This document shows positions 1 through 31,004 of a DNA stretch of 64,000 nucleotides, piece after piece (position 1 is the first letter of the stretch; each line of letters opens with the position of its first letter). Origin of the DNA: Beroe forskalii. Its lineage: Eukaryota > Ctenophora > Nuda > Beroida > Beroidae. The stretch lies in contig WFMF01000388.1 in the NCBI GenBank assembly GCA_011033025.1, positions 106,219 through 170,218 of the forward strand, given 5' to 3'. The position numbers and the translations under genes are program-made. Under the pieces are notes generated by a model that saw nothing but the letters and a program-made list of their open reading frames with translations, ran no database searches and was not told the origin of the DNA.

Positions 1-2756
1 TGGATGGTTATTAAGCTTTATGCTATAGGTGTGCGTAATCATATTATTGATATTCCATTTCCCGCTGATCATTAGTCAAGATGACAAGAAGTACCTACCG
101 TGTTTCGAACTGAAACCGGAAACTCTCCCTACGCCATCACTGACAGGCTTATTACTTTATTACCTTATTACTTTATTACATAATCAGAGTGGGAGAGTCC
201 TCCTCCGGTACAGCCCTTGCGCTGCCTATAAAGTTAAGTTAAAAGAAGATACCATATAGGAATGAACTAAGAGCCAAATTTTCCAGGGCTAAATAACGGG
301 CGATTCCAGAAAGCTTGGTATCACATAACCACAGAAGCACATAATATCAAAAACCTATGAAGATCTGAGTTTTGGCCCCAAAACGACACCACCTTAGCCT
401 AGTGAAAGGCATTCATGATAAAATGATATCATTTCTGTGGGCCGAAAGAAAATTTTTAAATCATAATTTGATCCGATAGCCCTACCCTGGCGTGGACCCT
501 GATGGGGGAGTAAGTAAATTTTCAACCTATGAAGGCTTTCATTGGTATATCAGAGACCACTAAAAGCTTGCATCAGATAATTCGAATCTTGCAAATATCG
601 CAATGAAAATCTTGCCTTTCCTATGAAGGCTTTCATTGGTATATCAGAGACCACTAAAAGCTTGCATCAGATCATTCGAATCTTGCAAATATTGCAATGA
701 AAATCTTGCCTTTCCTATGAAGGCTTGCAGTGGAATATCAGAGACCACTAAAAGCTTGCATTAGATCATTGGAATCTTGCAAATATTGCAATGAAAATCT
801 TGCCTTTCCTATGAAGGCTTGCAGTGGAATATCAGAGACCACTCAAAGTTTGCATAGGACCAACTGAATCTTGCAAATATTGCAATGAAAATCTTGCCTT
901 TCCTATGAAAGCTTGCAGTGAAATATCAGAGACCACTAAAAGCTTGCATAAGATCATACGAATCTTGCAAATATTTGAATTAAAATCTTGCCTTTCCTAT
1001 GAAGGCTTGCATGGGAGTCTACATTATGACAGGCATTTTCCTACTGTTGGGTCAGCCAAAAGACTGCTCAACGTGTGAAATATTGCAAACTTCTTTAAAG
1101 CTTTTTGTTGCCAAATGCTAGATTTGTCTTCTGTCTCATACGGCAAATCTTGCAAAACCACCAAATAAACTTGCTGGTCCCTAATTGATTTAAATTCCGC
1201 TGGCTATGATGAGCAGTCTTTTGGTAATCTCATGCAAGTTTTTTGGTGACTAGTGCATTATACCATCGGGGGGGGGAGCCTATAGTAGGGTTAAAATGGC
1301 CGCCAATTTTCTTGCATCTGGCAAGCTATAACATGGAATGTGCTATTGGTGTTATACTACCGTACAACTGTACTTCTGCCGTTCAACTACCGTTCTAGTA
1401 CCGTAATTCCTCGCTGCTTACTGTCGTATGTGGTGTTTGGTTTGATTAGCTAGTTAGACCGGATTGATAATACAAAGGCACATTCTGTGTATGTGTAGAT
1501 TACTATAACACCGTACAGAGTATGTGGGTGTTATTAAACTGTTATTAGCGCAGTCTAACTCATTTACTAATGAAGTTTGTCATTCGGAACGGAAACTAAC
1601 GCCTCTACCGCACTCACCTGATGAAAGTTGGGTGATAATCATGTTACCAAGTCCCAGACGAATGCAGTTAGAATAAGAATATGCCGTACACTGTACAGAG
1701 AATCCACTCGATAACTCATGCTGTTAAAATCAGAAAAAGTTGATGGATCTAAAAATAAATAAGAGAAGAAAAAACTACTTCAATTGCTTTTTACCTGCCG
1801 AAATGAACCAAATATGCCCACTTTTAAACATGAACATGCATCTCAGACTGTGAAGAAAGTAGGTAGATATTTACAGCTCAGTTCGTTGACTTGGGAACTT
1901 CTGAACTTGATAGTGTGGTATGCGGAATTTCTAAGTTATGAGGGTGGCAGGAACACCTACTGCAGTAGATGCATGCTTGATATGCTGTGAAGCTGTGGTG
2001 TGTTGTGTAGGGAGTTCAGATGTTGTAAGGCTGTCAATTAGGTACTAGACACTTACACGGTGATGTATCTTTGTAAGGAATCAGCATACTTCTAAAGTTC
2101 TAAGGCATGTCATACTTCCATGGTACACAGAAATTCTTGAGAAATTCTTGAGATATTATTATTCTGTCCTTGGCATGATTTTTGACTTCAAGATAAAAAT
2201 CCAAGCGTTCGCAAGGTTTCGTTGTAGGTAGGAACGATCCCATATTGTTAACTGTATATTGTTAACTGAGTGTCTTCAAAGAAAGATACGAAGATGGAAT
2301 CGTTCTAATGGAGATTTGATTCTTGGATAGTTGAATCCGTGTCAAAATGTGGTCATCCTTTCCCTTGAGATACCGAGAGTGAATTACGTGATTGGCTTGC
2401 GTTCCACACTCTTAACTTTAAACTTCTTACGCCTTAACATTCCAAGTACTACCCGGACGCGACGTTTGTATTCAAGGTGACACGGGCTGACACCCGTGTC
2501 CTCCCTAAATTAGCGCCAAATTTTATCTGTAGCGCGCTGCGAAATCTTTGTTGCTTTCTACGCGCTCCACGCACGTTTTCAACTTAATTTTACGTTTTTC
2601 ATTCAAGTAACCATGTGGCCGGCCTGGCTTGAGCTGCCTGGCTCGCTCATGAATACGCCCATTCTGGGCCAGAGATCAATTAGAAAACGATGCTGATTCT
2701 TTTTCCAAAAAAGATTGCAGTAAATGTGTGTAAACCCCTGTTTCTCCCCCTTCCAG
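1..2756. other. Sequence upstream of the first visible PLC-gamma exon; no gene seen
   Basis: The first PLC-gamma exon in the window starts inside the X domain, so this stretch is probably part of the preceding intron. I looked for the exon that should carry the first catalytic histidine (Ser-His-Asn-Thr just before Tyr-Leu-Thr-Gly), ending in AC before a GT donor, and did not find one. Short open frames here have no recognisable composition. A 94-bp tandem repeat fills 524-1012. A small hairpin (GACACGGG with CCCGTGTC) lies near 2479-2500. Confidence 0.6.
524..1012. repeat. 94-bp tandem repeat, about five copies
   Basis: Each unit begins CCTATGAAGGCTT and contains TATCAGAGACCACTAAAAG and AATCTTGCAAATATTGCAAT. 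Copies start near 525, 620, 714, 808, 902 and 995, with a few substitutions each. The longest open frame through it lacks coding character. Confidence 0.85.
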
Positions 2757-3464
2757 GTACCTGACAGGAAACCAGATCACGAGTAAGAGTAACGTTGAGG
2801 CGTACGTGCAGGCCCTCCTATCGGGATGTAAGTGTGTGGAGTTGGACGTGTGGGAACGACAGAACACCATCATGATCCTGCATGGTAACACCCTCACTAC
2901 CATGATTGCAGCTAGTGATGTCCTGGCGGCTATCGAACAGTACGCCTTCAAAGTTTCACCGTGAGTTTATGGCATTATTTTGGTGTGAAATGGATTGTCT
3001 AAACGAAATGAGTAGCATAGCTAAGTGTGTCTCGTTTGATTTGGTCGAAGTCGTTTGTCTGTTCGCTTGAGCTGACCTTCAAATACAGTGTGTGATCCTT
3101 CAATCGTAGCTGGTGTCATCATTGAAAAGACAGCTTCAAATTTCAGGTATCCACTGATATTGTCAATAGAAAACCACCTTGGTCCTCAGATGCAAGAAGA
3201 CTTCGCTAAGATGATTAAAGAAATCCTTGGAGGTATGAAATTGTTTTGTCACCAGACACAATTAACGGCATTTTATTATTATTCTCTGAATAGGTATTGA
3301 TCATTTCATTTGTATTCGATTTTCCTCGAGTTTCGTGAATACCAATATATCCTTAAATCTGAAGAAAACCTATTACACTTCTAGATAAGTTGCTGAGTGC
3401 GCCGCTCCCTGATGGTGGACAGTTGCCATCTCCCAACATGCTCAGAAATAAAATCATCATAAAG
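2757..3464 (+). CDS. PLCG: PLC-gamma X (catalytic) domain, three exons
   Basis: The exons at 2757-2960, 3147-3232 and 3385-3464 encode the TIM-barrel X half from YLTG to the linker. HGNTLTT keeps the second catalytic histidine. VELDVW supplies the Glu and Asp that bind calcium in this family, and ILSIENH supplies the further calcium-binding Glu. IIIKDKK at the end of exon 3 and start of exon 4 (3692-3728) keeps the substrate-binding lysines. The enzyme should therefore be active, provided the missing upstream exon carries the first histidine. The start at 2757 follows the acceptor CCCCTTCCAG and completes a codon begun in the upstream exon. Confidence 0.93.
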
Positions 3465-6400
3465 GTGGGTAGTGAGCGGAATGGGTGCCAATCTAGCGTG
3501 TGCTGTGATTACCTTTCCTTACCCGTCACAAGCTTCCAGAAAACTGTGATACCTAATTGCACCATGTAAAACACCCTTATTGGAGACTTTGTTTTATTAT
3601 TGTTACGATTACTTGAGTTGTTGTTTAATGAGTTCACATCCAAGCTGTTTGCCAATAATTGATTTGCTTTGTTTATTCAACATTATTACAGGACAAGAAA
3701 CATCTACGGGATTTCAATCATGAGTACCGTGAGTCCTTTGCATTTATTGCTGCTTGACATGACCCTGAGGTAGACGTGCAGAACTATTTGATCTATTAAA
3801 TATTACCTGTACCCCTCCATATCTATGAACTATTACAATAATCAGGTCTCAGCGTTTCACTCCCTATTATACGCCCAACAATCTCCCCTCCTTTCATCAG
3901 TAAAAACAGACATTGTCCGCCGCGGTGAGATATACTTCGAGAGTTCACTGCACGCCAACGACTGGAGTCGTCGAGTAGTCCTCATGACTCCGGAGTTCCT
4001 CTACTACTCCTATCAGGAGTCGGATAGCGACGAGGGGGAGATGAGGGAGCGGATTGGGGCTATCAATGGCTCCCCGGCTGGGACAACCCTCAAACTGTCA
4101 GACCTTCATCTTGCTGAACCGTGAGTATTGTTAGTGGAGATTGGAGAATTGCTTGGGGGTGCTTATAGCAGTTTTGGCGACATCATGTTTGATTATTTTG
4201 CTTTGATTGTGGCTCGAAAATTATCGATGAACGCGGTGCGACAGCTGATCATGTTAAGAGTGACTCCCTCGACTCAGGTGGTATTGGGGCGGTGTGGATG
4301 CCAACGCTGGCAACTACTATATCAGCGAGTATGTGAAGAGTATGATAAGTCTGATGGGAGAAGAGATCAACCTGTCCGGGGACTTTGCTATCAGACCCCG
4401 CACTCAGGGTGTGGGAGAGTTCGTCCTGCTCTTCCTAGAGTAAGTCAGGAGTGAGTTGTTGTGAACAGCGAGTAATTATTGAGTGGACGCAGACTAGATG
4501 AAAAGTGAAAATGAGCGAATAATGGCAATCAGGCTTAAAATCGAATTCGTTCCAAACTGCAAGCTTCAATCCTTATCTAAACCAAATATAAACCTTACGT
4601 CTTAGTTCACAGAACAAAGCCAAGAAGATCAAAGTTCAATCAAAGTACGAGAGAGGGTTCCCGCGTTACTTTATCGAGGATTACCCCGGAGCCCCTACGT
4701 TTGAGTCCCTTTACGCCCTTGTCAAGCACTACCAAAGGGTGTCTTTCTCTGTGGACAAGGTGCCACTAATCCTCAAACGACCCATACAGGAACCGAGGAA
4801 TTTCGCCAAAGAAATGTGGGTTTTCTAATTTTTTGTCTCTTTGAACCGCTTTAAATCGTCACTGATTTTGTCCCTTAATTATGTTCGAAATAACTTGTCA
4901 TTAATTTTTATTTTGTTACACCCGTCTTTACACAATTGATGAACGGAGGAGCAAAGGGAGATATCTTTTCAGTTGGTTTCACTACGGAGCCACGTTTGAG
5001 GATTCAGAGCGAAGGTTGAGGGATCACAAGGTGAATGGTGCCTTCTTGGTAAGAGAGCTCCCAGATAACAAGTTCAGACTCGTCTTCAGATGCGCCGGAT
5101 CGGTAAGTGGAGGACAGGAGGAAGGGAGGAGTTAGCTGGATGACAGGGATATGGGATGATCTACTAAGGGATAAGTGTAAAAAGTAGCGAAAGTTGGCTA
5201 CGTGAAAAAGTTCCACCATCCACAGTTCTATGATTCAATAATCAATGAAGATAATCGCGTTTTGTGTTATTGTTTCAATGTCGGTAAAAGAAACCTTATC
5301 GAAATATTTGTCAGGTACGATCATGTAAAATCAGACAAGATGGTAGACTCTGGATAATAGGGAATTCTCAATTCGAAGGGCTTACACAACTTGTGGACTA
5401 CTATAAGAAGCGTCCTCTGTATATCACGAAGAACAATCAGGAAATAAAGCTGACGAAGCCTGTTGAGATGATTCCTTTAGATCAGGTCGGACATGTTTTT
5501 AAATTTTACCTTGTTGTCAATTTATTGATTTTCCTATTCTTTCCTATTCTGTTGTTGTGGTAAAGAATTCAAAGTTATACCGGTGTTGCCGGTGTAGAAG
5601 TACTTTCAGCCCGCCGTTGTTATTGTTCATTGCTACAATACGATTCCCGTCTCAAGGCGTGGAAGCCAATGTCTGATTCAATAAACTAAAGCCTTTCATT
5701 GCGTATACAGTTTCGAATGGATCGTGTTTGTCTGACGCAGGGGTCTGGCAACGCCAGACAAGATAGTGTTCGCAGTGTTTTTCATTAGCAGGACAAAGTC
5801 CGATAGGTAATATTCATCACAAGCATCCAATCACGGTGTGAAATGATTCCGCCTTGCATGGCACATGACACCCATCATGACATTCGAACCTTATCCTAAA
5901 ATAGTAAAAACCACATAGTTCCCTTGCCCTTGGAAGGCATCATTGGAATTAGAACCGCTCTCCTTCATGTTTCACTTGAGATCAGATTTCAAATGATCAA
6001 ACTCAGCCGTCTCAAATGGATCGCCCTAAAATCAGTATAAATATCTTGATGAACTTTCATCAGTATCAGTTGATTTCTCATCGTTTCTTCTAAGAAGTAT
6101 TACAGTTCACTACGTTATAACTCGTCTCCTCTTCCACCCGAGTTACACTATGAGCAGAACGTACAGTACCTTCACCTCGCGTTACTCAGTCCTCAAGATG
6201 CTGGGAGAGGGCGGCTACGGCTTGGTTTGTCTTGTCCGGCGGACATCTGACGGAACTCTGCACGCCGCTAAGGTGGTGGCAGACGACAAGTGTCGGAGGA
6301 AGACGTGGTGCGGGGAACGGAAGTGCTGGATTCCTGACGAGATCTTCCTCCACGAGACACTGGAACACCCGCACATCGTGACGCTGGAGGAGATCTACTA

Positions 6401-9400
6401 CCAGGAGGGCAGCTGGGTGCTGGTCATGGAGTTCCTACCTGGGTACAGGGACTTGTTCGACTACATCGTGGAGACAGGTCCTATGTCCGAGGGGGATGCT
6501 GGGCAGCTGGTGGCTCAGCTTCTAAACACGCTCACCTATCTGACAGAACAGGGCATCGATCACCGGGACATCAAGGATGAGAATATCCTCTATAACCCTG
6601 TCACCAAGCACATCAAGCTCATTGACTTCGGCTCCGCCTCACGCCTCCCCTCCGGACGTTACACCTCGTACCAGGGTACGGAAGTGTACCTGCCCCCTGA
6701 GTTCCACAAGTACAAGTCCTACTCCTCTCAGCCTGCCGCCAGCTGGGCGGTGGGGTGTCTGACGTACGCCCTGCTGAACGGTCAGCCCCTCTTCAGATCA
6801 GTGCGGGAAGTGGAGGAGTTCAAGGTGCCTGTGTGTGTAGCTCCTGGTATCAGTGACATGGCGGAGAGGTTCCTGGCATCCCTGCTAACTGTGGAGGAGA
6901 CAAGGAGGATCTTACCTGGTGGCGCGGTGTTTCACCCCTGGATTCAGCGGGCAATAGCTGAGAAGTGAACTCGTGATGTTAGATTTTTATCAGGAGAATA
7001 TGAATATGAAGTTTCGATGAGATTTTGATATCATGCTTATTAATTATTGCTTTTTATCGTTTTTGTTTATCAAATGACAATTTAATTCTTTTTACTGAAT
7101 ATAGTGGTCTATTATCCCATGCTCTGCAGTACCTAATAAGCGCGGGGGGGGGTGGATAGCAATTTTCAAGGAGGGCCAGGTACAATTAAATAGCACCCAC
7201 CCCGTTTAATCGATTCTGGAATTTTTAAACACATTTAGTGGAAAATCTACTCAGAAATGGTCTTTTTTCAATTTTATGAAATTTTCGGTAATTTGATTAA
7301 AACTTGGCTAAGAGATAGTCTGACTAGTTAAAATCTGTGAAATATCAATCACTTCATGAACAAAAACAATTAAGGAGTAGATTCGTTTCATCACAAATCC
7401 AGTTCCACCCACTTATTTGGCAAACCCCACTGGTTTCCCTGTAAACTTCTAAAATCCAAAAAGCCCTCTTTTCACCTCTCAAAACTGCGAGCCGTGTATC
7501 AGTACATTTCTCAGTCATCCACACTCCTAAAATTCTGAGTTTATCCGACTAAGGCGTACTAACATATGATTATCAGGTGAGCACGCCGGCCGACTACCAG
7601 CTCCTGAACCAGGAGTACGTGACGGAGGAGGAGATCAGAGAGCGACCGGAGGAAGTGTACGAGGCCGAGGAGGACTACCACGGTCGAGCAGAGGACGAAC
7701 TGACCTTCCTCAGAGGGGCCATCATCCGAAACGTGGAACAGGACTCAGATCACGTCGGATGGTGAGTCATTTGAATACTGTAGTTCTGATAGGTAAAATT
7801 TTAAAATGGAATTTTTGGCTGGAATTTATTATGATCATCAAAGCTGGAAATGGAAAAATCACGGTGTGTTGTGGGAGAATTGTGTAGTAAGTCGAACTCA
7901 AAGCAGAGGAAGCAAAAGTAAAACAAACAACGTTTGATTTCAATGCATTAATCTATTAATCTATCAATTACGGTAAGGAAGTTAAGATTGCTCACTAACA
8001 ACCTTATACTGCCATCGGCCATGCTAGCAGTGAGATTCTTCTATTTCCTTCATGAAGTCCTTAGCTGCAAGATACTACCGGGTTGGCAGAACTTATGTTT
8101 TATCAAGGCCATATTCGGCTAACTAACCCTGATATACCGTTTGTCCCTCGCAGATTGCCAAACCAGTTCCCCCGTGACGGCCATCGGCATACACCATCCA
8201 ATCACCACCAATAGCTTTGACACTCGATGCCATATCATTGAAGCCTTTAAGGCTTCGTTGATACCTATCGTTGAGAACTCGCTTACATCTTCATCCAAAT
8301 CCATACGTGTAGATTCGTAAAATATCCTTAACGTCCAGGCTGAAATCGGAAAAAACAATAATATCATGCTAACTCGACATTTCTTGTGCCTTAAGGGACT
8401 ATTCTTCGAGCCCAAGCCGAGTGGAATATGGAAAATCCACACCGATATAGTGTGTAGTAACAATATCATTTAACGATCCGAGCAAAAGTTACGAGGCCGC
8501 TCCGTGAACTGGATTTCAAACTCGGTGAACGGTCCGTGAGTATAGGTGATGCATTATAGACCATGAAGCGCTAGTTGAGATCATAGTTAAACAAATTGAA
8601 AAAAGTAGATACGTCAATATGTTTGACTTCGAGAAAAAAAAGATTTAATTACTTTATTATATTTCACCTGTAGAGAGTGAAAACTCTCGTCTGCCGGTAC
8701 GTCTTCTATTGTATAGGTGTTCAGCGTTGGTGGTGTAGATGGTTGAGTTAGGATATGCTGAGATCTGGGTTGATGAACTGGATGAAGGATGTCTCGTGTA
8801 AGGTTGCTGAACCCTGCTCCAAACTGTTGTTCAGACCTTTTGTCGGTAGTTCGTCCAATTCAACAACTCTGTTCGATATGGATATGAGGGTTATCAATAG
8901 CGAATTATTTCACACAATCTATATCAGATGGGGTTGTGTAGAGCATGTGAGATTTAAAAAATTATCCAATCACGTTCGTTATATCAAAAGATCAAAATAT
9001 GTGTGATGGTAGATAGAATTACAAGATGCAAAGGAAATTTAAGGTAAAATTGATCAGTTTTTTTTGCTGGTAATGATTTTAATGATTTCAGAACATAATG
9101 CCTGTTGTTGCTTGTTACTGCCACTGGGACCTTTATCTCGAATATTTCTAATCTTCTGAAGTTCTGATATCTTCGTTAGAAGGATTAACGTTGAAGTGGG
9201 GAAAAGGAAACATATAAAAGAAAGAAAGTTTCCTGTCCTGTTAGGTATTCAACTATTCATCAATATCGATACAAATATTGATATCAGTACCGTTAGCAAT
9301 GAGACCTGTGCATGCCAAACCTCTATCAATAGCCATTTTTGGCTCTACTTGAAAACCTTACATCCTCTATGTCCTACTAGTTTACTTGAGTGTTATATTA

Positions 9401-15400: not shown

Positions 15401-18400
15401 CCAAATTTCGTACCTTATAAATTTGTCTTGTACGGTATGTAAGGTATGGTTTTTCGGCTCTCATAGACAGTATGGTATTCAGATCATGCTGGCTGTTATA
15501 TTTTCAATTTACTGTTCAACTCCATCACACATTGTAGTCTCAATACCACCCTTGTGCACTTATAAATATTTTCCGTTAAAATCAAGTCTCTGTCTCAAAG
15601 CGTTCAAATTGTTTACCGTGGTTTGGAATTGTTACTAATTGTAAATGTAAGTTGTAACTTCATTCATGTATCATTTTTCTCAGTTTCAAAGAAAAGTGGT
15701 ACTGCATTTTAAGAACACAATTTGTCTAATATGTTATTACGGATAAAGAGATAAAGAGATAAGAATTACCGACCGTGGGAGTTTCATGTGATACTTAATT
15801 ACTTTTGCTTTTGATGTTTCTCGTTTTACCGTACCGATTGCAGATAACTTTTAATTTGATTTAGCAATACTAAAATATCAAATAAAATGCCTGAATTTGA
15901 ACTTGTACATTGAATATTAAATCATTTTAATTAAATATTAATATAATTTTCGTTTTAGTATAAAGGTGCTTCATTTGGGCCTGCAATCTTATATTGCGCA
16001 ACTTCACAACTAGGGCAGCCCCAGATATGAAGTTGCAGCCATAAAATTTTGATTCAGTTAGTTTTTTTCTAAAATTTTCGCCTTTTCCAGTCGATGTGGT
16101 GAATCTACCTTATATCAGACATAAATTATCACGGACATTACATTCACGCTGAGCACTTCAGCGTGAATATTAAGGCCCGTGAAAATTTTGTGACGGACCA
16201 GAGAATCCATTGGGCCAATCCTCTAATTTTACTATGTCAAGGAGACGTCTAATAGACTTCAGGAGGCCTTTATATTAGGATTGCATGCTTACACCAAGCT
16301 AGTCGGTTAATTAGTATAACACTGTGGTCCCATATTTTGTCACTTATTTTGTCACTTATTTTGACTCTCTTCATAGCTAAACGATGAAGGCGTTTCTCTT
16401 CCTTGTCATGGCCCTTTCTATGCTTTCTTCCGTGGAGGCTAATAACCTACGTGCGTGTCTTCGAGCATGCTCTAGAGGTAACTCTTAAAATGTTATTATA
16501 GTTATACCAAGAAATTCAACCATTATTACAGTGATATTCTTGAAATTCCGTTCTAAAACTGATATATTTCAGAATATACGAATTCTTTTGATTTTGATCA
16601 ATATGCTTTTTTATCTTAACCATTCATATTTTTTGTTCATTGTTAATCACTTAATCTACCGCAATACTCCCTGCAGGTACGGCAGCAATCCAGGCGTTTT
16701 GTCGTGTAATACCTCATCCAGCCGTTAGAGCTGCATGTTGGGCGGTACAGTTCGCCTCGCCCGCAGCATGCAGTGGCTTCTGTTACATGTACTATTCGTG
16801 AGGTGGTGCAGGAGCAGCATCCAGCAGTCAATGGCGTACCTGCTCCTGATTGGTTTTTGGAGCAGATATACTTATCAGTATGATTATAATTAATCTACAT
16901 ACATCATAATTGCAATCAATATCATTCATATTAATATCATTTAAGCCCCAATTTTATTGTTGATTAAGATTTCAAATATTTATATGACGGTGGTTTGAAG
17001 ACCACAAAATTAAGATCAATACATAATTAATATATGTTTCATTTTGATACATTTAAGATGAGAAACTGAATAAAAGGACTAAATGATTTAATATGATGCC
17101 GAATTAGGTGTTTTTTGTTTATACTGGTTATAATCCATTGATTCAATAAATTGTGAATTGTATGCAATTAATTTTCTAATTTTGTAGTAATTTTATAAAG
17201 ATTGTCGTAGTTGTGTCTCCTACAACTACCTTAGGAGGTTTATTTATAAAGGTTGTAATTCGGGGATTTTTCAGAAAAATCCCCATTTTATCACCCACCA
17301 TGAAATTTCGAAATGACGTCATTATCATATGTTAACAAGAGTAATAAATTGAAAATCCCCATATTTTCAACCTATCAAAATTTGAAACACCGAAATTTTA
17401 TCCCATATAAATACACCTCCTAAGGTACAAATAGATATTTATATTGACAACTATTAGGGAGTCACGTATTACGTCATCAACCGAAGGGGGGGGGGGTGGT
17501 TGCCAAATGATGACAGAGAGGAGAAAGGGGTTCATAGGCTTTGTTGACGCCAGCAAAAATTCCACATTTCCACTCTCAAAATTGTAATTTTGTAGAGTTT
17601 TGAATAATTAAAGACATGAATGCGGTTACTTTTGAACTATTACTTTCATACAATTTCTGTTGAATTAGGGCAGGTTTCAAGATGGGAAATTGGTTCTTCC
17701 CAGCCAAGCTGAGAACAAAGCCTGGTTTAGTGGTTTAAGCCCAATTCCGAACCATTGTTAATCTAGTGGTGCTGGGTCAGTTGGTAACTGAACGGATTGA
17801 CCTGTTCTGTCATTCTCAAGCTAACCACCGAGGTGGGGGGTCGGGTGCCACCTGCTACACCTAGTTCTTGGACATGTTACCCTCAGGCCCACAGAGGTGG
17901 GGCTTCTGTTGGTGGCCTGCCACCCAGGTGACAGGTGCTGTCTCTCCTTCGTCCTCAATTCTCACTCTTGCTCGGCACTGGACATGTTGACCTTCCAGTG
18001 GCTCATGCCAACCGCATTACTGGTACCGGTAAAGTCTTCTTAAGGTTTTACTGGTTCTCCATTCACCTAGTTCCTGTCTCGACAGAAGACTATAAAAGAA
18101 CCTTTACCTCTTCAATAGTTTAACTTAACCGGGCAAAGAACCTGTAGCTATCGTGGGCTTTATAATGCATGACCAGCTATAAACAGGGCACAGGACCTGT
18201 ATATACACGCCTCACATATTTAAGCCCACGCTCCAAATCTTCAGTCTATTTCAGACCGTGCAAAAACTCAACCAGTGGCGTGCTCACAGGGCACAAGGTT
18301 TTGAGGGTCTCCTCACTCTTTTCTAACCATAGGGATCAGGGCAGTCAATCTTCGGAGGGGCGCCCCCGACCAATTGTTACTCCTAGAGTATCACCACCTG

Positions 18401-21060
18401 GTACCATGTAAGAGGTTGCTAGCAAGCCTAATAGTGCAACCAGTTGGGTCCCAGTAGAACTCTCTGCAATTGAGAGTTGCCATCAATCCCCGGATGTGTT
18501 GGTCTGTTGGATATTGCACCAAAAAGATCTGTTGAATCCTTTATTGCTATAAATATAATGTTTCCAGTAAATTTAATCATCAAACTTTGTTAAGTTCTGT
18601 GTTAAATTCAAATTGAAAAAGGATAAACGTGCTATTTTGATAATTATTTGTTCTCCTAGGTTTGTTGGCGATTACGGGCCGAGGAAGCGGAAGCGTTTCC
18701 CCAAGAAGTTCGTCAGACTCTACGAGTGGGAAGAGGAGGAAAACCTCGACAATCCACTTGGTTTGTTCAAGTTCAGTTTTTTTATATGAATTTTGCCTGT
18801 GATTCAATGTTCATCAGATATCGTATATTCCTGTATATCTGATATCACTGGGATCATATTCCTGTATATCGATGAGATCATATTCCCGCAATTCCAAACA
18901 GCATCATTTCCTGTCACTGCTTGTCAGACGTTGTCGAAGGCGAAGGGGTCAGACAACGTCTGACAAGTCACTGCCTCCACACCCAGGCAACATGTGCGAG
19001 GGCATGATCCAACTGAAGAAGTCGACCGCGCGACTACACACGGTCTCTGACAACTCGTACATCCCCCACTACATCTCCATCAAGTGCGAGGGTCGGGAGG
19101 AGTACCGGATGGGATTCAAGCAGTACGAGGAGATGGAGCGGTGGTTCGACTCCATCACCAACCCCAAGAAGAGCAAACCCCTCAGCAAGAAGCCCACCAA
19201 GCGGAAACAGTCCGTGGCGTACTCTGCCCTGGTCATATACGCAGTGGCTATTCCTGCCCCCATGGAGTTTACGGATGATTACATTGCGTCGCTAAACTAC
19301 AGGGAGATGTCGTCTTTTAACGAGAACAAGCTGGAGTCACTCACTCAGAAATCTACTGCTGCCAACCTTCTGGTTGGTGTGCTGTGTATAATAGGGGCAC
19401 ATTCATATTATTATAACAGTATTAATACGGTGCTGTGGACTTTGCAACATTGAATGTATTGATCGATCCAAATTTACAATTTATGTTATAGCTTAGTAAT
19501 GTTTATCTTGGTGTCTATCATCTATCCTATATGAAAGTATTAAAATTTCCCTTTAGAACAAACTTGATCTTCGATATATTCAGGCTTTCACAAGCTCGTG
19601 CCTGGGACGAGTGTATCCGAAAGGGATGCGCACGAACTCCAACAACTACGATCCGCTGCTGGCCTGGAATTACGGGATCCAACTTGTGGCGCTGAACTAC
19701 CAGACCCCTGACAAAGGGATGCAGCTGAACTGGGGCAAGTTCCACAACCACAACGCCGGGTGTGGCTACGTCAAGAAACCCTTCGACATGGTCACCAACA
19801 AGTTCGACCCCCGTCAGGACTCCTTTTCCAACTCAGTGGCCCTCTTTATCAGGGTGGTTGGCGGTAGAATGCTCTTCAGCGAGTCGGGAAACTCTCCTAA
19901 AGTGAAGATATCCATGGAGGGTTTGGATTGTGACGTTACAGCAGCAGAGACCCTGCCTGCCAAGTCGAGCACGTGTCCGTACTGGGGGGACGGGAAGGTC
20001 ATCAGCTTGCTGTGTCTTAACCCCGACATGGCCATGCTCCGCTTCGAAGTGACGGACACTAACGATTTCGGCGATGAGAAGTTTATAGGTCACTGTACGT
20101 TTCCCATCAGACAGCTGATGACAGGGTGGCGGTGCGTGCCGCTCTTTGACGGCTACGGCCACGAGAAGCTGCTAGCCCGGCTGCTGGTCCACATCGAGAT
20201 GGAGATCCTCAAGAGCTCGGACCCGGAGCGGGAAATGAAGCGAGTGCGGGGAGAGATCCTCCAGCTAAACGAGCATCTGACGGAGGTTAGTCCCGTGTCA
20301 GAGCAGGACATAGCACGACTCAAGGAGATAGAGGACAAGTACTTCGAACTCTCCTTCCTCCAGAGGAAAACAGAACTCGACCAAAACAGGTATGGTTTCG
20401 TACGATACTACTTCATCATGACTTTCCTCATCTCCCTTCATTGATTTTGCAGCTGAATATTTCTCCTGTTCGGTTTTTTGGCTCTTGCTGTTCCATTTGA
20501 AATTTCGAGTCTTATTTAGCTGACAGCACAATTATCTTTTGGAATTTCCAATTCTTCTCTATCTTTTTAAAGCTGGTCTTCGTTTGTATTCCATTATATC
20601 AATAGATATTTATTCATTATATCATGAATAGATATGAGCTTGATTTCTCTGAAAGTTTGATTGCAGCATTGATGATTTGGACGATTTATTGCGGGAATTT
20701 TATCTTTTGTTTAAAATGGAGAAAACTCAAAGATAAGAAGCATATAGGAATTCTGGAAAGCAGAGGTAATCATTTCATGCTCAGACTTACAATTCTCGGT
20801 ATCTTTTCATCTAAAATTGTAAATTATTGTCTTTATTTGCTAGTCTAATTTGACTTTTTTCTTATCTTTTTCTAATCTATAGCACTGTTCAAATAGACAT
20901 TTTTATTCTTTTCATGAAGTTCAATCTCCATGATGAGCTATGAATTTTATTCCCACTCAGGGTGGCAGCCAACAGTGCGATGTCTGGACATGTTAGGACT
21001 CTTTCTAGGGGAAAGACATACGTGAGATTGTCAAAGAAACGTTCCAAGCCATTGTTATAG
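2757..21060 (+). CDS. PLCG: Phospholipase C-gamma (5' end outside window), 14 exons
   Basis: This gene encodes a PIP2-specific phospholipase C that produces IP3 and diacylglycerol at the plasma membrane downstream of tyrosine kinases. Exons: 2757-2960, 3147-3232, 3385-3464, 3692-3728, 3901-4120, 4278-4439, 4606-4815, 4973-5102, 5315-5485, 7577-7761, 18660-18760, 18987-19372, 19584-20389, 20961-21060. All junctions are GT-AG and every phase joins, giving about 958 residues to the stop. Domain order is X, half PH, SH2, SH2, SH3, half PH, Y, C2, the order specific to the gamma class. The N-terminal PH/EF-hand region and the first catalytic histidine lie upstream. Introns are 150-2100 bp except intron 10 (10.9 kb). 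An AATAAA at 21290-21295 is a plausible poly(A) signal. The protein is clearly PLC-gamma but divergent, especially in the first SH2 and the SH3. Confidence 0.95.
3692..4120 (+). CDS. PLCG: PLC-gamma X-domain exit and N-terminal half of the split PH domain
   Basis: Exon 3692-3728 is only 37 bp and links the X domain to the gamma-specific insert. Exon 3901-4120 encodes the first half of the split PH domain: RRGEIYFE, then DWSRRVVLMTPEFLYYS, then an acidic stretch (SDSDEGEMRE) where vertebrate PLC-gamma also has an acidic loop. It ends at LHLAEP, directly before the first SH2. The match is by position and pattern rather than by strong identity. Confidence 0.85.
4278..4815 (+). CDS. PLCG: PLC-gamma N-terminal SH2 domain (divergent)
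   Basis: Exons 4278-4439 and 4606-4815 encode WYWGGVDANAG, a long helix, then GDFAIRPRTQGVGEFVLLF, which stands where the SH2 core GSFLVRES normally is. The arginine that binds phosphotyrosine is kept (AIR), but the residues around it are changed. The second exon gives YFIEDYPGAPTFESLYALV, the usual SH2 C-terminal half. The second exon's acceptor is the TTAG ending at 4605, not the later CACAG, because only that join keeps the frame. Phosphotyrosine binding is inferred. Confidence 0.85.
4973..5485 (+). CDS. PLCG: PLC-gamma C-terminal SH2 domain
   Basis: Exons 4973-5102 and 5315-5485 encode IWFHYGATFEDSERRL, then GAFLVREL with the conserved FLVR arginine, then CKIRQDGRLW and FEGLTQLVDYYKKRPL. 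In vertebrate PLC-gamma1 this domain holds the enzyme autoinhibited by binding the phosphorylated linker tyrosine. Tyrosines just downstream in exon 7577-7761 (ADYQLL and QEYVTEEE) are candidate equivalents, by position only. Intron 9, which follows, contains the PIM-like gene. Confidence 0.9.
5728..5761. mobile_element. 34-bp hairpin MITE, hAT-like, copy 1
   Basis: The element starts TTGTCTGACG and ends CGCCAGACAA. Flanking 8-mers GATCGTGT (5720-5727) and GATAGTGT (5762-5769) match at 7 of 8 positions and are read as a target-site duplication. It lies in PLC-gamma intron 9. An 8-bp duplication is typical of the hAT superfamily; the assignment is an inference. Confidence 0.7.
6036..6070 (+). 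promoter_or_regulatory. Candidate promoter of the nested PIM-like gene
   Basis: TATAAAT occurs at 6036-6042, about 110 bp upstream of the kinase ATG at 6150. An initiator-like TCAGT lies about 30 bp downstream, near 6066. This spacing suits a core promoter inside PLC-gamma intron 9. It is a pattern match only. Confidence 0.4.
6150..6968 (+). CDS. PIM: PIM-like serine/threonine kinase, intronless, nested in PLC-gamma intron 9
   Basis: This is a single-exon 272-residue protein that is all kinase domain. The glycine loop is GEGGYGLV (19-26), the ATP-anchoring lysine is in HAAKVV (Lys41), the catalytic loop is HRDIKDEN (138-145), and the magnesium motif is DFG (159-161). The activation segment ends GTEVYLPPE, and HPW lies near the C terminus. 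LVMEF followed by DLFDYI, and the exact HRDIKDENIL and LIDFGS strings, are typical of the PIM family, whose members are constitutively active because they need no activation-loop phosphorylation. The ATG at 6150 precedes the glycine loop by the expected distance. Lack of introns in an intron-rich region suggests a retrocopy origin. It lies in the same orientation as its host, with its own candidate TATA box. No clear poly(A) signal was found. Confidence 0.92.
   Translation: MSRTYSTFTSRYSVLKMLGEGGYGLVCLVRRTSDGTLHAAKVVADDKCRRKTWCGERKCWIPDEIFLHETLEHPHIVTLEEIYYQEGSWVLVMEFLPGYRDLFDYIVETGPMSEGDAGQLVAQLLNTLTYLTEQGIDHRDIKDENILYNPVTKHIKLIDFGSASRLPSGRYTSYQGTEVYLPPEFHKYKSYSSQPAASWAVGCLTYALLNGQPLFRSVREVEEFKVPVCVAPGISDMAERFLASLLTVEETRRILPGGAVFHPWIQRAIAEK
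7577..18760 (+). CDS. PLCG: PLC-gamma SH3 domain split across a 10.9-kb intron
   Basis: Exon 7577-7761 encodes the linker and the first half of the SH3: AEEDYHGRAEDELTFLRG, then NVEQDSDHVGW. Exon 18660-18760 completes it: FVGDYGPRKRKRFPKKFV, then an acidic stretch. DELTF and the strand after GW align with vertebrate PLC-gamma SH3. The usual ALYDY is replaced by AEEDYHG and the second Trp of WW by Phe, so classical PxxP binding may be weakened. The split falls inside the codon for the conserved Trp (phase 2). The intron between contains other genes and repeats, described separately. Confidence 0.88.
9724..9808. repeat. 36-bp repeat at the splice donor of the nested CCP gene
   Basis: Just over two copies of a ~36-bp unit containing CAGTAAGTTTCACTGTAGTC follow the last CCP exon in its reading direction (minus strand). 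The unit recreates sequence next to the donor at 9808. Confidence 0.7.
9741..10997 (-). CDS. Secreted protein with one CCP/sushi module, nested antisense in PLC-gamma intron 10
   Basis: Exons on the minus strand: 10997-10922, 10648-10154, 10000-9809, all GT-AG and in phase. Exon 1 encodes a signal peptide (MRSNIICALALILCGVF, cleavage near DVHS). Exon 2 encodes ~165 residues with seven cysteines, including a CCNKIC cluster, that I do not recognise. Exon 3 is a CCP module with four cysteines (ALCSG, VGCSTG, TITCEG, SCQLG). After SCQLG there is either a donor (GTAGAG) leading to exons I could not find, or read-through of 22 codons to a stop at 9741. The first intron contains a MITE (about 10742-10870). 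CCP modules mediate protein binding in extracellular and complement-like proteins. Expression and the 3' end are uncertain. Confidence 0.68.
10742..10870. mobile_element. MITE of the CCGATCAGGCAAGTGTC family, copy 1
   Basis: The stretch between ACACTTGCCTGATCGGGTCC and GGACCCGATACTCCGATAG is homologous in reverse orientation to 33045-33150. Imperfect inverted flanks rich in TATA(A)TATA surround it. It sits in the first intron of the nested CCP gene. Confidence 0.65.
11064..11117. repeat. Imperfect hairpin
   Basis: GTTATCGAAAATT at 11064 pairs with AATTTTCGATAAC ending at 11117, around a GC-rich loop. It may be a relic MITE. Confidence 0.5.
12329..13430 (-). pseudogene. LINE (non-LTR retrotransposon) reverse transcriptase fragment, degenerate
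   Basis: On the minus strand, broken frames read in order: the endonuclease-RT linker (FDIECRKAKR), the RT fingers with DNYSVIAVGSNLGKLF, where the family has NYRPI, and motif A with FIDFKKAFD. A frameshift separates the fingers and motif A, and the YxDD box is missing. This is an inactive relic of a non-LTR retrotransposon inside PLC-gamma intron 10, antisense to the host gene. The clade is not determined. Confidence 0.8.
13440..14240. other. Spacer between two LINE fragments; nothing recognised
   Basis: I see no coding exon. A short G-run (GGGGGGGG near 13992) and purine-rich stretches are present. It may be untranslated LINE sequence, but I cannot show that. Confidence 0.4.
14365..15340 (-). 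pseudogene. LINE C-terminal fragment with zinc-knuckle-like motif
   Basis: The minus-strand frames read GLGAYFSLRNTV, then LVTPILTYGCQVWLPS, which is the thumb/connection region found after RT in many LINEs. After a frameshift, ICDFCSS then EEHILATCPLA form the C-x2-C ... H-x4-C motif of LINE C termini. It lies upstream, on the minus strand, of the RT fragment at 12.3-13.4 kb, so the two are separate or rearranged insertions rather than one collinear element. Confidence 0.75.
16143..16167. repeat. Short perfect-arm hairpin upstream of the peptide gene
   Basis: TTCACGCTGA at 16143 pairs with TCAGCGTGAA ending at 16167 around a 5-base loop. It lies about 220 bp upstream of the ATG at 16384. 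A regulatory role is possible but unsupported. Confidence 0.5.
16384..16801 (+). CDS. 72-residue secreted six-cysteine peptide, nested in PLC-gamma intron 10
   Basis: Two exons, 16384-16477 and 16677-16801, join in phase 1 with a GTAACT donor and a CTGCAG acceptor. Residues 1-19 form a classical signal peptide with a long hydrophobic core, cut after Val-Glu-Ala. The mature ~53 residues have cysteines at 25, 29, 40, 52, 63 and 67, spaced C-x3-C-x10-C-x11-C-x10-C-x3-C. This almost mirror-symmetric pattern, with Ala-rich segments, suggests helices stapled by three disulfides. The mature part is mildly basic, with four Arg and no Asp or Glu. This is the architecture of host-defence or signalling peptides, but I do not recognise the family. 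An AATAAA at 17069-17074 could end the transcript. Size, small exons and lack of a homologue I can name leave some doubt that it is a gene. Confidence 0.75.
17229..17425. mobile_element. 197-bp MITE with TA target sites
   Basis: Inverted ends CCTTAGGAGGTTTATTTATA and its complement (TATAAATACACCTCCTAAGG, one mismatch class apart) are flanked by TA at 17227-17228 and 17426-17427. An internal hairpin GGGGATTTTT / AAAAATCCCC is present. TA duplication suits Tc1/mariner-type mobilisation. It has no coding capacity. Confidence 0.75.
18921..18966. mobile_element. 46-bp hairpin MITE, hAT-like, copy 2
   Basis: TTGTCAGACGTTGTC pairs with GACAACGTCTGACAA around a ~16-base loop. It is flanked by perfect 8-bp direct repeats GTCACTGC (18913-18920 and 18967-18974). 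The insertion ends only 20 bp before the PLC-gamma exon at 18987, between the probable branch region and the acceptor. Confidence 0.85.
18987..19372 (+). CDS. PLCG: PLC-gamma C-terminal half of split PH domain and start of Y domain
   Basis: The 386-bp exon gives GMIQLKKS, IPHYISIKCEG, YRMGFKQYEEMERWFDSI, matching the last strands and C-terminal helix of a PH domain with its conserved Trp. A lysine-rich linker (KKSKPLSKKPTKRK) follows. Then comes YSALVIYAVAIPA ... YREMSSFNENK, the opening of the PLC Y domain (vertebrate SELVVYCRPVPF ... YRDMSSFPE). The donor at 19373 (GTTGGT) is chosen because it joins phase 0 to the next exon. Confidence 0.9.
19584..20389 (+). CDS. PLCG: PLC-gamma Y domain and C2 domain
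   Basis: One 806-bp exon carries the rest of the Y half-barrel: GRVYPKGMRTNSNNYDP, GIQLVALNYQTPD and GCGYVKKP, the best-conserved stretch of the gene. The arginine of the PLC substrate loop is kept. The C2 domain follows (ALFIRVVGGRML, FEVTDTNDFGDEKFIGHC, GWRCVPLFDGYGHE). After it comes a charged helix (EREMKRVRGEILQLNEHL) not typical of vertebrate PLC-gamma, which probably forms a short coiled coil. The donor CAG-GTATGG ends the exon at 20389. Confidence 0.95.
20961..21060 (+). CDS. PLCG: PLC-gamma last exon, basic C-terminal tail
   Basis: The 100-bp exon after the acceptor CCCACTCAG adds 32 residues rich in Arg, Lys and Ser (GHVRTLSRGKTYVRLSKKR), ending at TAG 21058-21060. The tail could bind acidic lipids, but that is inference. 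Phase 2 joining to exon 13 supports it. Confidence 0.85.
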
Positions 21061-28277: not shown

Positions 28278-31004
28278 ATGTCACTCCAACCTTTCCTCCC
28301 CACGATTATCCTCCTCCTACTCTCCCTCCCCCTTGCCACGTGGTGTGCTCTGACCTGTAACTCTGGGGGTGCTCTGTGTCTGGCTACCCCCACGGGGTGT
28401 ACCTCAGACTGTGATTTCCTCCTCAAGTATGCTGCTGCCTCAGCCACAACCACACAGGTTGGTATAGACATGGAGGGGTTTTAGGAATGATTCAATGATA
28501 TGTCTTTAAATAGTGTGTTGCAACTTCCATTCACGAAATAATTTTCTGCAGCTGTTAAGTGTTAGTTAGTACTCACTTGAACCTGACCTTAACAGAAATT
28601 AATTTTAGAGTTTATACTAAAAAACTAAACTCTTTCGAACGAGTGAAATGTCTTCTCAGATAGAGATGTCAGGTAAGCTAACTGCTCATTCCCTCTCCTC
28701 CTCGGCCCCTTCTGTTTGGCTGGCATTCGCTTTATCCCCCAACGGTCGGATGTCCACCTCCATGATGATATACTCCTGTCAGTTGGTCAGCGGGTCTTAC
28801 TCAGCCAGAAAACTACCTGCAACTGGCTACGGCGTCGACAAGTGAGTTGAGTGACTGGGGTCCAGGTTACTGGCGACAACTTACAAATTTCTCTCAAAAT
28901 CTTCAAGTTTATTTTAGTTTAATGAAATGACAGCTTTTTGAAAGATGATTGAATAAACTAGAAATAATTGACCCGAATGTAGCGTCACATGCTGTTTCTC
29001 GACAGTGGTCAGTCAGTTGTCATTGACAAAGGGGATCTGGTTGGTTCTAACGCAGACGGTACGATGTCATGCTCCTTCACCATGGACAACTCAAATCTTC
29101 CATCAAGTGATCAGACAGTGGTCCTTGGAATGGGTGGGTCCGTGAGAACTGAGATGCAAAGCTCGCGTCGTGTTTTTCTGCCTTCTTTGCTCTGCCAAAT
29201 AATCTACGAAAATTTATGGATGTGCACTAATTTTGTAGAAACATTATTTGCTGTCCGGACTTCATTGATGATTGATGATTAGATAAAGGACCCCGAGTAA
29301 AATATGTGACACTCTGCAGGGTTGATGCAAGGTACGAATAACGTTAGGAAACACTCTAAAACCCCTGCTAACACAGGCAGCAGCCTTTCCCTCATCCAAC
29401 AGTTCGGACAGGGTGAGTTGACAGCCCCACATTCACGTACTATTTGGAGTGTGGGCACCAGGCAGGAGATTTCATTCATTACTCTGTACCATGCCCGTGT
29501 ACCATGCACCAGCGCTTACACGCACACATGTTCACCAATTTAATCAAGACGTTAGGGGTTATTAGCTCCTCCAATAGCTGCAGCAATCTTCTTTTGCCTC
29601 AAACTTCTCAGTTATATTGATTAATTCTACGTTTCAGCTGCCTGCAGTAAACCATCTGTTCCCAATGGATCTGTCACCCCGGCTTCTGACACCATTGCAT
29701 CCGGTGCATCGTACACTGTGTCATGTGTAGGGGGTGCCACTATTTCGGGGAGCCCTACTGTCACCTGCACAGATGGCACCCTCTCTACTCTCCCCACCTG
29801 TACTCTTACTACCTGTAGCAAGCCATCTATTCCCAATGGATCCGTCACCCCGGCTTCTGACACCATTCAATCCGGTGCATCGTACACTGTGTCATGTGTA
29901 GGGGGTGCCACTATCTCGGGGAGCCCTACTGTCACCTGTACAGATGGCACCCTCTCTTCTCTCCCTACCTGTACTGTCAATGTTGTCACCTCCTGTAGCA
30001 AGCCGTCCATTCAGGATGGTACTGTGACACCAGACCCTGGACCTATAGCGACTGGTGCGTGATATTTCTGCTTTTCAATGTTTCCTTTTGATTTTTCAGA
30101 TTTTGGCATAGTTTTGGTTGTAAGTATCTTTAAACAGTGTTGCGTTCGTTGGAAAATTCTAACTGATACTAAATTCGCTCAATTTCCACTATATCAAACC
30201 TGATGATGTTCCAACTAACTCCCCCATATTCCAGGTGAAACGTACAGCGTGTCATGTAACCCGGGTTTCACGCTCTCCGGTACTCCGGACATTATCTGCA
30301 CTGACGGAACACTAGCTACCCCGTACCCGCAGTGTACGGCAGATAGCAGTACCCCTGCTGGGACATGCTCCAAACCTTCCATCCCCGGGGGAGGGGTGTC
30401 CCCTGACCAGGAGAGTATTGGTGTAGGGGAGGCGTACACAGTAACGTGCAGTGAGGGGTTCACTCTTAGTGGGGGCGGGGGGACTGTCACCTGCTCGGAT
30501 GGGGGCGTGCTCTCAGCGCTACCTACCTGTACAGCAGGTAAGTTATTATAACTCTACCTGTACAGCAGGTAAATTCTCATAACTCTACTTGTACAGCAGA
30601 TAAATTATCATAACTCTACCTACCTGTACAGCAGGTAAATTCTCATTACTCTCATAACTCCTGTACACTGTACAACAAGTAAGTTCTCATAACTCAAATT
30701 ATCTGTACAGCAGGTAAATTCTCATAACTCTACCTGTACTCCAGGTTTGTCTGACGTCGTTAGACCCATTATTTAAAATTTTAAATTTATTTTAAATTTA
30801 TTTAAAATTTTAAATTTATTTACGTCACGACTCTGCGAGTCGTGGCGCGCGCGCTTCGCGCGCGCGAGGGGGTCAGGCAACGCCTGACAACTCCAGGTAA
30901 GCTGGTAGGGGGTAATCAAAACTCTATTTGTTCTTGTACAGCAGGTAGGGACAATTCTTTCACACTACCCACTATTTATTGCTCGTGTCGCAGATAGCAG
31001 CTGA
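28278..31004 (+). CDS. Secreted DOMON plus four CCP/sushi modules
   Basis: Exons 28278-28457, 28660-28841, 29006-29133, 29320-29412, 29638-30054, 30235-30537 and 30994-31004 join in phase to about 437 residues. The signal peptide is MSLQPFLPTIILLLLSLPLA. Residues ~25-190 form a DOMON domain: an early CTSDC pair, VWLAFALSPNGRM, SCQLVSG, and SFTMDNSNLP. Four CCP modules follow, each opening CSKPS and closing TCT. DOMON domains bind heme or sugars; CCP modules bind proteins; the product is extracellular. The ATG at 28278 is preferred over an upstream in-frame one at 28239 because an acceptor (TTTCAG) falls between them. The 3' end is ambiguous: the exon at 30994 gives Asp-Ser-Ser-stop, while an alternative at 31495 gives a ~30-residue Cys-containing tail. 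No GPI signal is seen. Confidence 0.85.
29638..29998 (+). repeat. Recent tandem duplication of a CCP module inside one exon
   Basis: The first two CCP modules are nearly identical in DNA over ~180 bp (29638-29817 and 29818-29995). They differ at a few positions, such as GTTCCC/ATTCCC and GCATCC/CAATCC. The third and fourth modules are much more diverged. Confidence 0.85.
30538..30745 (+). repeat. Minisatellite built from an exon-intron junction
   Basis: The exon ends ACCTGTACAGCAG before GTAAGT. About five further copies of CTGTACAGCAG followed by GTAAATTCTCATAACTCTAC follow, each ~35-40 bp. Each copy recreates the last exon bases plus a donor-like GTAA. The last copy is interrupted by the hairpin MITE at 30747. 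Confidence 0.85.
30747..30890. mobile_element. 144-bp hairpin MITE, hAT-like, copy 3
   Basis: The element starts TTGTCTGACG and ends CGCCTGACAA, with a perfect 8-bp duplication CTCCAGGT at 30739-30746 and 30891-30898. The interior has AT-rich repeats and a CpG-rich hairpin (GCGCGCGC). It inserted into a donor-like repeat unit of the junction minisatellite. Confidence 0.85.

Follow-up and report, generated by a model that had tools for sequence, protein, structure and literature searches.

Within the window, by which we mean the whole 64,000-nucleotide stretch of Beroe forskalii DNA analyzed here, two short exons (Table 1) can be joined to encode a precursor of 72 amino acids, from which a cationic peptide with six mirror-symmetrically spaced cysteines would be released. 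We favor, tentatively and short of calling it probable as a whole, the reading that this is a real, lineage-specific ctenophore gene, the product of which adopts a helical hairpin stapled in the 1-6/2-5/3-4 pattern and acts as a membrane-active host-defense peptide. The reading frame, the splice-site consensus, the cysteine geometry, and the helicity predicted for each exon were observed directly, whereas splicing, secretion, disulfide formation, and the overall fold we infer; membrane attack, suggested by charge, scaffold, and analogy, is only a conjecture because the helix moments do not exceed those of many shuffled helices (see below).

Table 1. Features of the peptide gene and of the PLC-gamma gene that hosts it, in window coordinates.
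Feature	Position	Strand	Description
Coding exon 1	16384..16477	+	94 bp; ATG 16384, signal-peptide-like stretch, helix-1 region with Cys25 and Cys29
Candidate signal-peptide coding part	16384..16440	+	residues 1-19, VEA/NN; from hydropathy, cleavage site read by eye
Intron	16478..16676	+	199 bp, GT-AG, phase 1, GC 0.27; from splice-site consensus
Coding exon 2	16677..16801	+	125 bp; Cys40, 52, 63, and 67; stop TGA 16799-16801
PLC-X, host gene	~2755..3096 (best stretch)	+	Pfam PF00388
SH2, host gene	~5249-5404	+	Pfam match below its cut-off
SH3, host gene	~7667..7762	+	PF00018, E 6e-4, below its cut-off; upstream of peptide gene
PLC-Y, host gene	~19518-19781	+	PF00387; downstream of peptide gene
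C2, host gene	~19842-20120	+	PF00168; downstream of peptide gene

As read from the sequence, the exons join in phase, and the coordinates, the borders and phase of the intron, and the length of the product all agree with the original prediction. Residues 1-19 look like a signal peptide, as had also been proposed: the N-terminus has a hydrophobic core at approximately residues 3-13 (by hydropathy), and Val-Glu-Ala precedes the putative cut. The remaining 53 residues contain cysteines at precursor positions 25, 29, 40, 52, 63, and 67, that is, in the spacing C-x3-C-x10-C-x11-C-x10-C-x3-C (gaps 3-10-11-10-3). This mature peptide is Ala-rich and contains five Arg and one His, Lys, Asp, and Glu all being absent (computed pI 9.2, GRAVY +0.42); its charge is only +5. 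The cysteine pattern, the approximate size, the net positive charge, and the lack of acidic residues thus correspond to what had been described. A 12-nt inverted repeat (16673-16684 / 16832-16843, 92% complementary) links the acceptor site of the intron with the 3′ flank, which could reflect RNA pairing, or chance. On the minus strand, a Cys-rich frame of 83 codons (16643-16894) was set aside as largely a reflection of GCA codons for Ala, which give TGC on the opposite strand.

For the surrounding gene, the plus-strand frames of window positions 1-28,500 were scanned with Pfam profiles, stops being read as Gln. The five domains recovered (Table 1) are those of a PLC-gamma, and the frame at 19,557-20,444 has PLC-gamma 2 and 1 as its best matches among solved structures (PDB); the second half of the SH3 was not located. 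Since SH3 lies upstream and PLC-Y downstream on the same strand, the peptide gene lies within PLC-gamma between the exons for these two domains, in the same orientation as its host, which bears out the intronic location originally assigned to it. The interval corresponds to one intron, or possibly two. Another PLC-gamma intron, between SH2 and SH3, likewise harbors a single-exon frame (6030-6968, plus strand) for a PIM-like kinase of the CAMK group. The genome search with this kinase listed 93 matches at E up to 1e-3, 43 of which align over at least 200 residues without a stop, which suggests a large, intron-poor kinase family. Elsewhere in the window, at 29625-30551 (plus strand), there are frames whose sushi (SCR) repeats closely resemble one another in sequence.

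In an antiparallel hairpin, the positions of paired residues have a constant sum. The cysteines of the peptide are in such a register (25+67 = 29+63 = 40+52 = 92), the center of which is Pro46 in a PHP motif. Because this register fits an antiparallel hairpin, the disulfides are predicted to be Cys25-Cys67, Cys29-Cys63, and Cys40-Cys52 (1-6/2-5/3-4), with the turn at Pro46. A helical wheel places the three cysteines of arm 1 at 340, 20, and 40 degrees, compared with 160, 180, and 220 degrees for the three of arm 2; the Arg residues of helix 1, at 140, 180, and 220 degrees, occupy the face opposite its cysteines. AlphaFold2 in single-sequence mode predicted, for exon 2 alone (residues 32-72), helices at 33-41, 46-55, and 60-71 (mean pLDDT 83.4) and, for exon 1 alone, a single helix spanning residues 2-29 (mean pLDDT 87.8), the latter being weak evidence for helix 1 because the signal peptide is included. 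The helix moments are reached by 8.0 to 15% of shuffles of each helix's own residues, so none stands out, and helix 4 is barely amphipathic. Stapled antiparallel helices, which the original prediction had suggested in general terms, are the likely architecture, refined here to a putative 1-6/2-5/3-4 pairing around a PHP turn. Structure prediction, which had been proposed as a check, gave helices for each exon modeled alone and yielded no relative: neither Foldseek nor VIA-align found a solved structure resembling the exon-2 model. The sequence speaks against an internal duplication having produced the symmetry, since a tandem copy keeps the order of the spacing, whereas that of arm 2 is reversed.

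Could two open stretches have been joined, by chance, into a symmetric cysteine pattern, without there being a gene at all? We regard this as unlikely, although it is the rival explanation that survives best. A single set of rules covering the start codon, the signal peptide, the donor and acceptor sites, and the stop codon, with at least six cysteines in the mature part, was applied to the window. Two start codons led to three candidates, of which two contain exactly six cysteines and one, the peptide gene, is mirror-symmetric. When the window was randomized 868 times with an order-3 Markov model, no mirror-symmetric candidate appeared, but candidates with six or more cysteines arose from a mean of 0.17 start codons per randomization; therefore, mirror-symmetric ones should arise a few times per genome, by multiplication approximately 2, or approximately 0.2 with the cysteines of each arm on one face. 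When six cysteines are placed randomly in 53 residues, exact mirror gaps result in 0.3% of cases and mirror gaps with each arm's cysteines inside a 60-degree helical arc in 2.3e-4 of them, which argues against chance, although these probabilities are descriptive, since the pattern had been singled out before they were computed. Synonymous codon usage is intermediate and does not discriminate: of 2000 base-composition nulls, 8% equal or exceed the score of the peptide gene, and of 160 coding windows, 8% equal it or fall below. A simpler coding score is weak as well, the value of exon 2 being attained by 12.6% of 707 open stretches of noncoding DNA. That no relative of the peptide was found (see below) is likewise compatible with chance. 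On the other hand, the reading frame begins with a signal-peptide-like stretch and has consensus splice sites, single-sequence prediction gave clear helices for both exons, and the GC content of the exons (0.49 and 0.54) is higher than that of the intron (0.27) or of the adjacent 500 bp on either side (0.35 and 0.30), although 9% of 126-bp stretches across the window, and 7% of nearby ones, also attain the exon-2 value.

The entire genome (216,145,372 bases) was searched with the 72-aa protein and with its 41-aa exon-2 part, both at E up to 10, and with 601 bp of DNA. The two protein searches and the DNA search found the peptide locus as a single copy, a result that strongly diverged paralogues can escape; the statement that the window contains no second copy can thus be extended to the genome. 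As for relatives, the available portions of the literature on ctenophore, antimicrobial, pheromone, saposin-like, sponge, and bryozoan peptides contain no recognized 3-10-11-10-3 spacing, which does not establish its absence from print. The peptide does not appear in the accessible text of a library screen with Mnemiopsis (PMC10537229), of PMC9525235 and PMC6278862, or of a study of placozoan secretory cells (PMC12013895), and the Synoicum turgens peptides described in excerpts of PMC13208793 have another disulfide pattern. No model in Pfam or NCBIfam matched at E up to 10, and the PDB sequences gave no meaningful match (one designed repeat protein, E 3.2, was taken as chance), in keeping with the lack of a family match noted originally. 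A scan of viral and prokaryote contigs by exact short stretches, which finds only close relatives, detected none either, as expected for an animal gene.

Several observations on the same genome were made alongside. Papain-family (C1) peptidases are abundant, with at least 153 matches (150 of 303 candidates scored; L010 and L016 are examples), many of which are single open frames of more than 300 codons, and the gene in L016 has Cys-rich C-terminal repeats read as ShKT domains. Among 30 papain-family loci in which silicatein-type enzymes were sought, 16 contained the active-site motif, in which the catalytic Cys was present in every case; 14 were misframed or lacked the region, so that this count is of limited informative value. 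Wnt matches comprise 11 pieces on six contigs, as befits an animal genome. The 13,339-bp mitochondrial contig (G000:C1134) carries COX1, with TGA read as Trp, and fast-diverged, T-rich frames read as nad, cox, and cob genes, among which no atp6 was recognized; ARAGORN, run with its bacterial setting and hence liable to overlook unusual mitochondrial tRNAs, found no tRNA gene on it. According to the available part of PMC6991124, rapid evolution and the absence of mitochondrial tRNAs, ATP6, and ATP8 form a set unique to ctenophores among animals, and genetic code 4 applies. The contig thus points, with high confidence, to a ctenophore rather than to the sponge that the PIM-like kinases and sushi repeats might suggest. 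Two frames on this contig (L044, 4311-4694 and 7546-8652) share an initial stretch of approximately 55 residues, which may reflect duplication of the beginning of one gene and its fusion to another frame.

The predicted 1-6/2-5/3-4 topology is that of saposins and of attractin. Saposin-like proteins have approximately 80 residues, form a compact bundle with four or five helices, and have bridges 1-6, 2-5, and 3-4 across them, so that the peptide, the two exon pieces of which are predicted to be helical, would resemble a shortened saposin in topology; however, the saposin B profile did not match it (Pfam, E up to 10). The search of the genome with SapB_2 lists three matches, all on another contig and none at the peptide locus; they are located approximately 1 kb apart in one open frame of 1397 codons (G000:C169, ~105,997-108,138, minus strand; L005-L007), a prosaposin-like gene that is intronless there. 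Attractin, a pheromone protein of Aplysia, has six cysteines bridged I-VI, II-V, and III-IV between two antiparallel helices, but its spacing and charge differ from those of the peptide. The closest case that may work alike is provided by turgencins A and B from the ascidian Synoicum turgens, which the available sections of PMC7024374 describe as antibacterial and without sequence relatives, a 1-6/2-5/3-4 helix-loop-helix-like fold having been assigned to turgencin B by NMR. Like the peptide, they are from a marine invertebrate, cationic, and contain six nonadjacent cysteines with CX3C at both ends (PMC7024374). However, their gaps are 3-4-8-2-3 and 3-4-7-2-3 rather than 3-10-11-10-3, the register of their inner pair is off by two, they have 35-36 residues and are amidated, whereas the mature peptide has 53, and their motifs CXMAC and KKXGG (PMC7024374) are absent from it. 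BLASTP aligned the peptide with turgencin A only at a nonsignificant E of 1.6 (5/14 identities) and gave no alignment with turgencin B. Because both spacing and alignment fail, the peptide is not a turgencin. Viscotoxins also have the 1-6/2-5/3-4 pattern, and earlier peptides of this pattern typically carry two adjacent cysteines (same source, available sections). Together with plant alpha-hairpinins, which have four cysteines (PMC11591084, accessible text) instead of six, viscotoxins share with the proposed peptide a disulfide-held helix-loop-helix and a defense role. The original suggestion that the family may be undescribed thus holds for sequence and spacing, neither of which found a match, but not for the likely architecture, which is of a known kind because its topology is known from turgencin B and viscotoxins (PMC7024374).

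What the peptide does can be proposed from its scaffold and charge. In the favored host-defense mechanism, the signal peptide would be removed after residue 19 of the precursor, and the 53-residue cationic product would fold such that its short helices form two antiparallel arms around the PHP turn, held together by the three bridges predicted above. Helix 1 would carry Arg23, Arg27, and Arg31 opposite its cysteines, and by virtue of this Arg face the stapled, protease-resistant bundle would bind and permeabilize microbial membranes. It is possible, if rather doubtful, that the peptide represents a ctenophore-specific "mini-saposin" family, that is, an exact mirror six-Cys helical bundle of approximately 45 residues that evolved independently, in an animal lineage that branched off very early, as a native secreted defense peptide. 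Alternatively, the same stapled hairpin could present a receptor-binding face and serve as a secreted signal, either a hormone or a waterborne pheromone comparable with attractin. Near-mirror six-Cys hairpins of the 1-6/2-5/3-4 type do act as the Aplysia pheromone, and the gene is single-copy, whereas defense peptides often form families. Yet, the absence of acidic residues and the pI of 9.2 suit membrane binding better, and the peptide sequence contains neither a dibasic processing site nor a C-terminal amidation glycine. Moreover, the neuropeptides reported by a mass-spectrometric survey of ctenophores that targeted short amidated peptides are of another type (PMC9525235, the available text of which mentions neither cysteine nor disulfide), and we consider a signaling role improbable. 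A component of feeding or adhesive gland-cell secretions, that is, a prey-immobilizing or matrix peptide, is the least probable of these roles: candidate genes of Mnemiopsis tentacles and colloblasts are enriched in signal peptides and some match animal toxin genes (PMC6278862, accessible text), and compact disulfide-stapled cationic peptides would suit such secretions, but the peptide matches no solved or profiled toxin sequence in the PDB or Pfam.

If real, the gene would supply a native disulfide-rich candidate for a defense or signal peptide from a ctenophore, and thus from one of the earliest, or the earliest, of the animal lineages to branch off. The stapled helical hairpin of the 1-6/2-5/3-4 type would then have been reached independently once more, here with a mirror symmetry exact to the residue, so that convergence of the scaffold could be examined cleanly, in a peptide small enough for direct synthesis and testing.
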